Shown here in pieces: positions 17,287-42,504 of a stretch of DNA of 46,420 bases (position 1 is its first letter; each line of letters begins with the position of its first letter). Under the pieces are notes generated by a model, which saw only the letters and a list, made by a program, of their open reading frames with translations, was not told where the DNA came from and searched no databases. The position numbers were made by a program, and so were the translations under genes. Source of the stretch: a virus. The stretch is taken from the IMG/VR virus record IMGVR_UViG_3300018892_000009, positions 1 to 46,420 of that record; one strand, 5' to 3'.

Positions 17287-17292
17287 AGAAGA

Positions 17293-17857
17293 GTCAAGAG
17301 GAAAGGGAGCCGAAAGGCACTCGCTACCAAGAGCCTCACTGCTCTACCGTAGCACACTTTAACACCTTGACGCTTCTGGTTTAAGTTAAGTAGTTTCTCA
17401 ACAGTCCCGACAAAACTTGTGGCGAGCGGGTGAAAATGATGATTAAGGATGTACGAGCCTTAGCCCTGTTGAGATATCCCTTATAAAGGACAAAGCTACA
17501 AATCACAATCTAGATGTTCTCCGCGTATGACCCTAAAGGCTGCGAGGGCTAAAGTTGAACTAGAGGAAAACCATTAAGGAAGCGGCAACGTTAGCTTGTT
17601 TTTCCTGAGTGTCTTCGAGAGTGGCAACACTTTCAAGGCTTAACCAAACATACAATAACCGGATATATCACTTTAGTCGTCGAGGCTCTGGGTGAGAAAT
17701 AAGGGGAAGGTATGGGCGGTAAATATTCACCAATCTGCAAGCGTTGAGCCTCGACAACCTGCCTTGCGGTGAATAACTCTCACTTGCAAACTCTCACTAG
17801 CCTAATAAGCTGCGAAGTATCGCATCAAACGCCCACAAAGCTTTGATGCGATTTTTG
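17293..17857 (+). ncRNA. Large structured RNA A, about 565 nt
   Basis: No credible reading frame lies between the promoter at 17258 and the terminator at 17819-17852. The sequence holds several exact helices. GTCAAG (17293) pairs with CTTGAC (17366). CTCAACAG (17397) pairs with CTGTTGAG (17466). A GNRA hairpin GAGAGTG-GCAA-CACTTTC lies at 17617-17634. A 10-bp helix joins GTCGAGGCTC (17679) and GAGCCTCGAC (17746). TATTCACC (17724), inside its loop, can pair with GGTGAATA (17768), forming a pseudoknot. It looks like an ornate phage RNA of the kind exemplified by GOLLD and ROOL, but I cannot match it to either. Its 5' end resembles that of RNA B (41246). Confidence 0.72.
17819..17857 (+). terminator. 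Strong intrinsic terminator of RNA A
   Basis: ATCGCATCAAA (17819-17829) pairs perfectly with TTTGATGCGAT (17842-17852) and is followed by a T run. Confidence 0.88.
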
Positions 17858-17865
17858 CGTTTACG

Positions 17866-38154: not shown

Positions 38155-38238
38155 TACTCTAGCCTAGAAATATTCATCGTCTTAGCCCTTGACAACGTTA
38201 AGCCCTCCAGGTTATGATTACCTTAGAGGGCTATGTGT

Positions 38239-38535
38239 CTAATACTTAGAATCTTGGTTGCCTCGGTAACACTCTTCCTCTAGCCAGCGTCGATCATACA
38301 TCTCATCCTCAGTCTCTACCTCATAGTGTACCTGTGTTCCCTCTGTGACGCCTACCATACGCCGCCCATCTGGTAGTATAAAGAGTTGAATGTTTACCCC
38401 ATCGGATAAGGTTGTAGAGCCTCGTAGGGTAGGCTCTGAGCCTAGGTAGTGCTTGACTAGCTCGTAGTGTTCAGAGCCATAGGTGACAGTGAACTTGTTA
38501 CCTGATTCGTTTATGTTTAGGAGGGTTGCTTTCAT
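38239..38535 (-). CDS. Small early protein, 98 aa
   Basis: Not recognised. Beta-rich N-terminus (SGNKFTVTYGSEHYELVKHY), acidic C-terminus with many Glu, Asp and Tyr. ATG after an A-rich leader without Shine-Dalgarno. Own promoter TTGACA-18-TAGTAT (38578-38607), whose -35 lies in the loop of a hairpin that may terminate the upstream gene. A GC-rich hairpin (AGCCCTC/GAGGGCT) lies just after the stop. Confidence 0.75.
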   Translation of the reverse strand: MKATLLNINESGNKFTVTYGSEHYELVKHYLGSEPTLRGSTTLSDGVNIQLFILPDGRRMVGVTEGTQVHYEVETEDEMYDRRWLEEECYRGNQDSKY

Positions 38536-39766: not shown

Positions 39767-40212
39767 GAATATTTGAGAGGGCTGAAACCCTTACCAGCTA
39801 GAGCGCTCAAAGTATTAGCACCCTTTAAGAGGTTACGCTTGCTAGCCTTTACCATGTCTTTAAAGCTGTACACCTTAGGCTGTGTGGTCACTAGACGGCT
39901 AGGGACTGACGTGGTTGGTGTTTGTACCTTCAGAGGCTCTCCAAACATAGCCGTGTTAGCCATATGAGCTTCTTTCTCCTCTAGGTTGCAGTATTCAGCG
40001 CTGGCTGGCTTTAGGTTGCTATACTGCTCTAGAACATAGTCAGCCAGTTTTGCTGTTGGGCTGTTGAGCGCAATCTTAGGGGTGTTGAACCAATCCATCA
40101 AGACCTTAGCCGCAGCTTTATACTGTCCAAACTCTGAGAGCTTCCTGCCTGTGCTGTCGGTGGTTACGTTGTAATCGCGGTTCAGGTTGCCTAGTACTTG
40201 GTTAGCGTTCAT
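39763..40212 (-). CDS. Early protein, 149 aa
   Basis: Not recognised. Helical N-terminal 75 residues (GQYKAAAKVLMDWFNTPKIA, then LADYVLEQYSNL), basic C-terminus (MVKASKRNLLKGANTLSALA) that could bind nucleic acid. The promoter (40268-40297) is almost identical to that of the 19863 gene, and the leader (ACACACAAAACACACACACA...) is A/C-rich with no Shine-Dalgarno. By position and promoter it should be strongly expressed early. Confidence 0.75.
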   Translation of the reverse strand: MNANQVLGNLNRDYNVTTDSTGRKLSEFGQYKAAAKVLMDWFNTPKIALNSPTAKLADYVLEQYSNLKPASAEYCNLEEKEAHMANTAMFGEPLKVQTPTTSVPSRLVTTQPKVYSFKDMVKASKRNLLKGANTLSALAGKGFSPLKYS

Positions 40213-40424: not shown

Positions 40425-40551
40425 TAAACCCCTCTAACCAGATAGGTTTGTGAGGGGTTCGGTGTGGAGTGCTTAGTAAGCCTGACTCTCTTGGCGACCG
40501 GAGTGACCCGGTGAGCTTCAACCTCATATGCCTGGGCTTTTCGCTCTCCAC
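40425..40551 (-). ncRNA. Small structured RNA 1, about 127 nt (paralogue of RNA 2)
   Basis: It has a promoter TTGACA-18-TATATT (40587-40558) and ends in AACCCCTC/GAGGGGTT (40459-40427). It shares blocks with RNA 2: TATGAGGTTGAAGC, CGCCAAGAGA, CTTACTA and CCTATCTGGTTA. The outer stem is GTGGAG/CTCCAC here and GTGAAGG/CCTTCAC in RNA 2, with a G-C to A-T compensating change. The inner hairpin is ACCGG/CCGGT here and GGTA-GAGA-TACC there. Conserved single-stranded blocks between covarying helices are the mark of a functional RNA. No open frame of useful length. Confidence 0.75.
40427..40459 (-). terminator. Terminator of small RNA 1
   Basis: AACCCCTC (40459-40452) and GAGGGGTT (40434-40427) form an 8-bp stem, followed by TAAC. 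The loop contains AACC-TATCT-GGTT. Confidence 0.65.
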
Positions 40552-40557
40552 CCTTTT

Positions 40558-40587
40558 AATATAACACCATTGTCTAGAGGGTGTCAA
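40558..40587 (-). promoter_or_regulatory. Promoter of small RNA 1
   Basis: Minus strand TTGACA (40587-40582), 18 bases, TATATT (40563-40558), preceded by GTGT as in RNA 2 and large RNA B. Confidence 0.8.
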
Positions 40588-40607
40588 GAGGTTTGACCAA
40601 CTTTTTC

Positions 40608-40622
40608 TGTGATAACAATGTA
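40608..40622. repeat. 15-bp inverted repeat, right arm
   Basis: TGTGATAACAATGTA, exact reverse complement of 40392-40406. Confidence 0.75.
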
Positions 40623-40739
40623 ACGCCCTAGGTTGGGCTGTGGGACGCTTTAGTGGGTTAGCCGTTACGTTGCCCCATTCTTGAGCGCTAACACGTCCTA
40701 GCGCCTCACAGGTGGCAGTGCTATACTTTACACCCTCAA

Positions 40740-40869
40740 AGCGAAACCCCCTTAACCAGATAGGCTTGTAGGGGGTTTCTTGTGAAGGAGCTAGTAAGCT
40801 TGGTTCTCTTGGCGGGTATCTCTACCGGGCTTCAACCTCATATACCGGAGCGGTTTGCTTTCCCTTCAC
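40740..40869 (-). ncRNA. Small structured RNA 2, about 130 nt (paralogue of RNA 1)
   Basis: Promoter TTGACA-17-TATATT (40904-40876) and a strong terminator GAAACCCCC/GGGGGTTTC (40779-40743). It carries the same conserved blocks as RNA 1 in the same order, with compensating changes in two helices, and lies 318 bases from it in tandem. Local duplication followed by divergence under structural constraint is the simplest reading. It is not a tRNA: no T-loop or acceptor pattern is present. Confidence 0.76.
40743..40779 (-). terminator. Terminator of small RNA 2
   Basis: 9-bp perfect stem GAAACCCCC/GGGGGTTTC, 19-base loop that contains CCTATCTGGTTA, also present in the RNA 1 terminator loop. Confidence 0.75.
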
Positions 40870-40875
40870 TTCTTA

Positions 40876-40904
40876 AATATAACACCCTCAGCAATAGGTG
40901 TCAA
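40876..40904 (-). promoter_or_regulatory. Promoter of small RNA 2
   Basis: Minus strand TTGACA (40904-40899), 17 bases, TATATT (40881-40876). Confidence 0.8.
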
Positions 40905-41210: not shown

Positions 41211-41239
41211 TACACACTTCTTGAAAAAGGTGTTATATT
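41211..41239 (+). promoter_or_regulatory. Promoter of large RNA B
   Basis: TACACA (41211-41216), 17 bases, TATATT (41234-41239), followed by AGAGGAGTGGAAGAGGAA, close to the RNA A start AGAAGAGTCAAGAGGAA. Confidence 0.65.
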
Positions 41240-41245
41240 AGAGGA

Positions 41246-42180
41246 GTGGAAGAGGAAGGGCAACCGACCAACCCCACAAGGAATGCGTCAAGCGAGTCAG
41301 CAATGTCAAGCTTGGTTTGTCTGACAGGAGAATATCTAAAAGGGTAACACGTTCCAAGGTGGACAACGTGCGAGAGTATTAGAGAAGATACTGTCTACAT
41401 ATTAGAACCGACCTTATTGGAGTCCACCCCACGACACTAAGGTTCTGATAGCTCTCCTTTGGTATGATACTTTCTTCTTGTAGCGACTCATCGAACCCTT
41501 TGGCAGGGGAGTCTGAAAGTGACGAACTTGGTGTATAAGAGCCATAACCTTACAAGATAGGCGCAAGCTGACAAGAGAGCGAGTTGAGAACCGTGACACC
41601 TTGTGAAGAAGAACCCATCAAGGAAGTGCAAGGGTGAAGAAATAAGATGAGGAGCAATGTTAGAATCCTGAAAGGGCGTCACCTCATCCACTCCGGAGCG
41701 GCAACCGTACCAGAACCCTTAAAGATTGGCAGTCCTTAAGTTGCTAGGATTAAGACACCTCAACGTCTTGGGTGGACAGGCTCTTTAACGGATTAGAACT
41801 AAGGGTAAGAGCCTTAAACCAATCTCACAGCTAGGCGCTCAACGTCTCTAGCCTGGTAGTACCCAGGCAACCGCCCTGAATGGCAACAGGCGCTAAATAA
41901 TCACTTCGCTCCAAGCTTGATGGTTAACCAGGCAAGGCAACGTTAACGCCTCAAAAGCTAACGGTTTAAGGGTAGCGCCCTGACAAGGTGAGTGAAAGAT
42001 TTCTCACTAGCAAGATTACCCGACTAACCGAACCACTTTGATTCATGAGCTGTGGATTGGCGTAAGTGCTAACCATCCGAATACTGGCAACAGTGAGTAG
42101 GTATCCGAGAGGGCAGAACTAGGGGAGCAGGTAGAAGGAAGGGTATTAAGCCTCAGAGTATTATTACTTTGGGGCGTTTT
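41246..42180 (+). ncRNA. Large structured RNA B, about 935 nt
   Basis: No credible coding frame; short frames on both strands look like chance. Long-range exact helices include GGAGTGGA (41243, partly at the start site) with TCCACTCC (41687), GGTGGAC (41358) with GTCCACC (41422), GCCTGG/CCAGGC (41851/41863) and several local hairpins, some with GCAA tetraloops (ACTG-GCAA-CAGT near 42090). The motif GGCAAC recurs about six times, and twice in RNA A. It ends at the hairpin 42151-42174. It resembles large ornate phage RNAs in size and texture, but I cannot name the family. Confidence 0.7.
42151..42180 (+). terminator. Terminator of RNA B
   Basis: CCTCAGAGTA (42151-42160) pairs with TACTTTGGGG (42165-42174; two G-T pairs), 4-base loop, followed by CGTTTT. 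Confidence 0.75.
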
Positions 42181-42225: not shown

Positions 42226-42504
42226 ATGAGAACTCTAACCCTAGTACATGAAAAGCAAGGTACATCAGGTACTCAGTCCTACTTTGATAAACCTTATGGT
42301 AGCGGGTTTCTTCTCATTGCCTACCGCGATCGCCATTATCAGGGATGGTACAAGGCTAAAATATGGGTTAATAATGAGCTGGTAGACTCTTGGAAATGTG
42401 AGGACGGGCTATGGACTAACAACACTTCTGGTGTCCAACTTCGACATTTGAGAAGCGTGGTTAAGTACCACGGTAAGAGAATGAAGCAATATAAGACGCA
42501 TTGA
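42226..42504 (+). CDS. Small hypothetical protein, 92 aa
   Basis: ATG after a C/A-rich leader. Aromatic- and basic-rich (YRDRHYQGWYKAKIWVNNEL), ending KYHGKRMKQYKTH. A HIP1 palindrome lies inside the gene (42326). Not recognised; a small beta domain is likely. Confidence 0.7.
   Translation: MRTLTLVHEKQGTSGTQSYFDKPYGSGFLLIAYRDRHYQGWYKAKIWVNNELVDSWKCEDGLWTNNTSGVQLRHLRSVVKYHGKRMKQYKTH

Follow-up and report, generated by a model that had tools for sequence, protein, structure and literature searches.

Paralogous genes for probable structured small RNAs beside a large non-coding RNA candidate in a phage of probable cyanobacterial host

The stretch of DNA analysed here (the window; 46,420 nucleotides, IMG/VR record IMGVR_UViG_3300018892_000009) is a 46.4-kb record of a contractile-tailed phage with genes for a tail sheath, DNA polymerase, primase, terminase and portal. 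Its terminase is nearest to that of the Leptolyngbya phage Lbo402-yong5 (35%) and to those of other cyanophages. Besides this kinship, the excess of GCGATCGC sites, of which the window has four against 0.5 expected and the sister phage described below has 15, suggests a cyanobacterial host. A region of 2 kb, flanked by a minus-strand gene with its start at 40212 and by a plus-strand gene at 42226, has no credible gene; in it are two predicted small RNA copies on the minus strand, C1 and C2, and a large non-coding RNA candidate, NC1, on the plus strand (Table 1).

Table 1. Predicted RNA features of the window and positions of the large RNA candidates in the sister phage (positions without prefix are those of the window).
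Feature	Position	Strand	Remarks
Small RNA copy C1	40551 to 40425 (approx.)	-	Predicted transcript; ~40551 is the first G of P1
Small RNA copy C2	40869 to 40740 (approx.)	-	Predicted transcript
C1 promoter	40558..40587	-	TTGACA-18-TATATT, TG just 5' of -10
C2 promoter	40876..40904	-	TTGACA-17-TATATT, TG just 5' of -10
C1 terminator-like hairpin	40427..40459	-	Invariant CCUAUCUGG apex at 40446-40438
C2 terminator-like hairpin	40744..40778	-	CCUAUCUGG apex as in C1
C1 conserved block TATGAGGTTGAAGC	40515..40528	-	GGUUGAAGC part also in C3
C2 conserved block TATGAGGTTGAAGC	40829..40842	-	
C1 variable hairpin P3	40497..40512	-	ACCGG/CCGGU
C2 variable hairpin P3	40815..40826	-	GGUA/UACC
NC1, large non-coding RNA candidate	41245..42176	+	Adjoins C1/C2; outside the small RNA family; ~930 nt
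NC1 in sister phage	L004:8560-9580	+	
NC2, second large non-coding RNA candidate	17290..17860	+	~570 nt
NC2 in sister phage	L005, about 12610-12050	-	Inverted orientation

The original prediction had described twin minus-strand units with shared blocks, and both their coordinates and the blocks proved right: C1 and C2 are 70.4% identical over 169 nt, promoters included (E 7e-15), and TATGAGGTTGAAGC, CGCCAAGAGA, CTTACTA and CCTATCTGGTTA are the same in both. The proposed promoters were also found, with a TG that had not been part of the proposal. With a strong promoter site defined as an exact TTGACA plus at least five of six matches to TATAAT, the window holds 11 such sites against 0.7 expected from shuffled sequence, and by this measure the predicted promoters of C1 and C2 are real outliers. 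That each copy has its own terminator is supported with qualifications: the hairpins are there and carry compensated pairs, but their U tracts are modest (GGGGUUUAACAUU, GGGGGUUUCGCUUU) and neither hairpin is on the list produced by a terminator scan of the window. The units are, as had been supposed, without coding capacity. A single long frame, of 61 aa with a TTG start, covers C1, and C2 does not keep it, since two of the conserved blocks are 18 nt apart in C1 but 14 nt apart in C2; ATGAGGTTGAAG as the start of a small gene was ruled out since its frame differs between the copies. The spacer between C2 and C1 (40590-40735, minus strand) has a hairpin of its own, GCGCUA/UAGCGC, and may belong to a longer transcript. 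Near-palindromic TTGTTATMACA sites recur in the window (37072, 40394, 40609, 43307 and others), several of them just 5' of genes or of C1, and are perhaps an operator or promoter element.

A covariance-model search, one of the checks proposed at the outset, was run with a model built from C1 and C2 alone and yielded one more copy, C3, in a sister phage (IMGVR_UViG_3300034029_000005, 45.6 kb). This phage shares ~68% DNA identity with the window phage (83% for the terminase) and is collinear with it except for inversions. One of these spans ~30.8-40.1 kb of the window (sister segments L004 and L006) and terminates on one side near the RNA island; the NC2 segment is inverted separately. C3 is the single copy in the sister genome (L005:11519-11350, minus strand; 32.3 bits, with the runner-up at 10.9 bits), and its E value is 4.6e-6 with filters on and 1.8e-6 with filters off. 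C3 occupies a 289-nt coding gap downstream of the sister NC2, a position that is non-syntenic with C1 and C2, behind a promoter related to theirs (TTGACA-18-TATCTT). Aligned with C2 it scores 38, whereas 1000 shuffles reach 28 at most; the alignment of C1 with C3 alone is not significant (score 25, shuffle maximum 31). The order and orientation of promoter, body and terminator are alike in the three copies. C3 retains GGUUGAAGC, CGCC and CUACUAGCU, besides the stem that closes the rod and the terminator loop CCUAUCUGG, and GCUACUAGCU is present as well. Few elements are constant, since CGCCAAGAGA and AUAUGA are missing from C3. Weak matches of the covariance model in the window itself comprise one at 41229-41306, which is the promoter common with NC1, and one at 38192-38366.

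The consensus fold is a rod of ~90 nt closed by its own ends (P1/P1b) and followed by the terminator hairpin. The compensatory changes between C1 and C2 that had been claimed for P1 (GUGGAG/CUCCAC against GUGAAGG/CCUUCAC) and for P3 were found, together with more in the terminator stem, and the independent copy C3, in which stems are again rebuilt by compensation, brings further ones, which supports the view that the RNA structure is selected. In P1 one pair is G-C in C1 and A-U in both C2 and C3, the latter having an additional G-U within its closing stem (GUGAGGG...CCUUCAC, then AGC...GCU); P1b is AGC/GCU. P2 consists of GCC/GGC and GGC/GUC in C1 and of GCU/AGC and GGU/ACC in C2, and an invariant GGU/GCC precedes P3. 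For P3 there are three wholly different sequences, all of which pair (GCUAGG/CCUAGC in C3). The terminator hairpin of C3 reads AACCCGCC-ACG-CCC-UAUCU-GGG-AA-GGCGGGUU, and its apex, CCUAUCUGG, is constant in all three copies. Most letters of C3 differ from those of C1 and C2 while the fold stays the same, and the identical blocks sit in loop and bubble sections next to stems that are rewritten. Between C1 and C2, however, paired positions are not less identical (46/66) than unpaired ones (39/53).

The minimum free energies of C1 and C2 have z-scores of -3.7 and -3.3 against shuffles. RNAalifold on MAFFT alignments, which are built without structure and are unbiased, gave z -4.3 for three copies and -4.7 for two, with none of 500 column shuffles as good; a hand-made structural alignment, which is biased toward pairing, gave -43.2 compared with -8.9 +/- 2.7 in shuffles (0/500). 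In the terminator hairpin, with an alignment not fitted to the structure, both sides have changed in 4 of 13 pairs, a result matched by 7 of 500 shuffles and by none of the slid controls. The minimum folds of C1, C2 and C3 taken singly surpass the consensus rod by 4-24 kcal/mol, and the exact fold of the middle of the modelled rod, above all in C3, is uncertain. The hairpin-rich character of this intergenic region could also be read without any functional RNA, as a duplicated promoter-terminator insulator or as DNA hairpins of an origin. However, promoter, body and terminator follow one another in the same order and orientation in all three copies, the cumulative GC skew has no extreme at 40-41 kb, and the body minus its terminator covaries too (z -8.5, on the hand-made alignment biased toward pairing), all of which speaks against such a reading; RNA is, moreover, favoured over DNA hairpins because G-U pairs occur in the stems. 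We regard this reading as very improbable, and C1 and C2 are in all likelihood functional structured RNA genes.

The original statement that the twins cannot be placed in a known class was upheld by the Rfam scan that had been suggested along with it, which matched no family to C1 or C2 down to E<=10. Neither did blastn against phages and plasmids give a credible homologue, nor two- and three-block patterns in IMG/VR a match, and ten distant relatives by terminase large subunit (TerL) have no C1/C2-like copy. A looser three-block pattern in IMG/VR found the sister phage as well as L012 and L013, which are chance matches unmatched by the covariance model. The two-block pattern gave three chance matches among 85,000 species genomes (Actinomycetes, Paenibacillus and Nitrospirales), none of which the covariance model matches. 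When four named cyanophages were searched with the model, its one match, in Dolichospermum phage Dfl-JY23, was rejected, as it covers a generic terminator and lacks the entire body. GAGGUUGAAGCCCGG, which we took to resemble a helix of the 16S rRNA, has no rRNA family match in Rfam. The family is known from three copies in two genomes only. With their own predicted promoter, covarying fold, terminator (with a modest U tract) and lack of coding capacity, its members are of the general kind of phage-encoded structured small RNAs, and C1-C3 most likely represent a real, new and narrowly distributed family of this known kind, its rarity being provisional because records very similar to the window may have been masked in these searches of Rfam, phages, plasmids, IMG/VR and species genomes.

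To our knowledge, few phage-encoded small RNAs have been characterised, and the ones described from cyanophages are cis-regulatory RNAs, antisense RNAs or look-alikes of Rfam families. CfrI of cyanophage S-PM2, a ~225-nt RNA (PMC12197685) and the best known of cyanophage RNAs, is likewise a non-coding RNA encoded by a cyanophage; however, it is cis-antisense to psbA, whereas C1 and C2 are paralogous and structured and have no gene opposite them among the open reading frames of the window. They are, consequently, not of the CfrI type, and the antisense control that had been left open as a function finds no support on the viral side, where a conserved target is lacking too (see below). The 6S-like mimic that had likewise been considered, an RNA binding host RNA polymerase, recalls 6S RNA in the bubble between paired rod sections that is predicted in both C1 and C2. 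However, the rod is only ~90 nt, half as long as 6S RNA, with a terminator hairpin attached, no 6S family in Rfam matches at E<=10, and the bubble sequence is lost in C3, which makes such a role the least probable of those considered.

Counter-defence by RNA mimicry of host RNA, be it of a CRISPR repeat or of an RNA antitoxin such as abiF, has comparable anatomies to recommend it. RNA anti-CRISPRs (Racrs), solitary units driven by strong phage promoters (PMC10651486), are, like C1 and C2, short phage RNAs, but no CRISPR-repeat-like unit was found in C1/C2, the copies of which differ by 30%. Compared with the CRISPR-repeat families of Rfam, C1-C3 have no match above the cut-off, and their only constant stretches fall far short of the length of a CRISPR repeat. 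The abiF antitoxin RNA is a small RNA of 100-130 nt that runs from promoter to terminator and has hairpin motifs (PMC12373285), and C1/C2 share with it the phage location, the length, a sigma-70-type promoter, the terminator and the hairpins. Nevertheless, the abiF model (RF03085) matches neither genome at E<=10, the outer terminator stem of C3 being weakly abiF-like (15.7 bits, where the cut-off is 37), and no gene for an Abi_2 protein was found in these phages, although a toxin-less decoy would also be without one. Mimicry of this sort is, on balance, improbable. A retron ncRNA, suggested by the conserved AGC after the closing arm, was rejected since reverse transcriptase (PF00078) is absent from both phages.

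No other DNA is as well conserved between the two sister phages as the NC1 candidate, which has the promoter element GTTATATTA (80% over 152 bp; alifold z -3.6), and a long-range complement, GGUGGAC/GUCCACC, occurs in both. NC1 can be regarded as a candidate for a large structured RNA. NC2, likewise conserved in the sister phage, has a TTGACA-17-TATATT promoter and an alifold z of -2.8. An NC1 pattern match in L018 is due to chance, being GC-rich DNA without NC1 context. GOLLD and ROOL are large structured RNAs of 600-900 nt encoded by phages (PMC12286853), with which the candidates NC1 and NC2 can be compared, but the latter are unmatched in Rfam at E<=5-10, GOLLD and ROOL included, and the window has no tRNA genes. 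Since C1 and C2 lie beside NC1, and C3 downstream of the sister NC2, the small RNAs could be partners of these large RNAs, docking via the terminator loop. An 8-nt complement exists in each NC1, between GCCUAUCU of C2 and AGAUAGGC in NC1 and between CCCUAUCU of C3 and AGAUAGGG in the sister NC1. However, the two NC1 sites do not align mutually and the best duplex energies of C1-C3 with NC1/NC2 are within the genome background (fractions 0.06-0.9), so that there is little probability in such a partnership. A broader arrangement, in which at least two paralogous ~130-nt rod RNAs and two large RNAs (~930 and ~570 nt) would act jointly on the host as an RNA-only system, e.g., as ribonucleoprotein decoys or RNA assemblies, is unlikely, albeit conceivable. 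We know of no such combination of small and large RNAs in phages.

Among 42 orthologous translation starts of the two phages no conserved viral mRNA target was supported: the duplex energies correlate between the phages with r 0.04 for the GGUUGAAGC block, 0.16 for the CGCC block and 0.42 for the short UAUCU loop, the energies of the last being weak. Since neither a conserved target among viral mRNAs nor pairing with NC1/NC2 beyond the background was seen, a partner of C1 and C2 would belong to the host. We infer that the RNAs are transcribed, stable and bound by a host factor, and tentatively propose the following. C1 and C2 would be paralogous genes, each with a strong sigma-70-type promoter used by the RNA polymerase of the host, and their products would be stable non-coding small RNAs that act in trans. 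Each product would form an end-closed rod in which the variable P3 is framed by the constant GGUUGAAGC and CGCC, with the downstream terminator hairpin displaying the invariant CCUAUCUGG apex. The constant elements would be functional sites and the stems scaffolding; the RNA would present these elements to a factor of the host, in the likeliest case a protein, and occupy or sequester it as a decoy, and two copies would provide dose or variety. Taken as a whole, including the step with a host protein, this proposal is possible rather than probable.

The results single out neither protein binding nor base pairing with host RNA, and the latter is nearly as likely. As trans-acting antisense small RNAs, C1 and C2 would use the unpaired GGUUGAAGC or the UAUCU loop as a seed for host mRNAs; an identical stretch between changing stems is seed-like, and promoter plus terminator are the usual anatomy of a small RNA, but the correlations given above offer such a seed no conserved target on the viral side. 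The decoy is preferred because a closed rod and an exposed constant apex fit protein binding somewhat better than a seed.

C1-C3 constitute a covariation-supported family of structured RNAs, with paralogues in one genome, from an uncultured phage lineage, in which the RNA island takes up ~2 kb of a 46-kb genome. NC1 and NC2 may prove to be a bigger and more surprising find than the twins. If the partner of the small RNAs is indeed a host protein, they would represent an RNA-based device for takeover of the host or for counter-defence.
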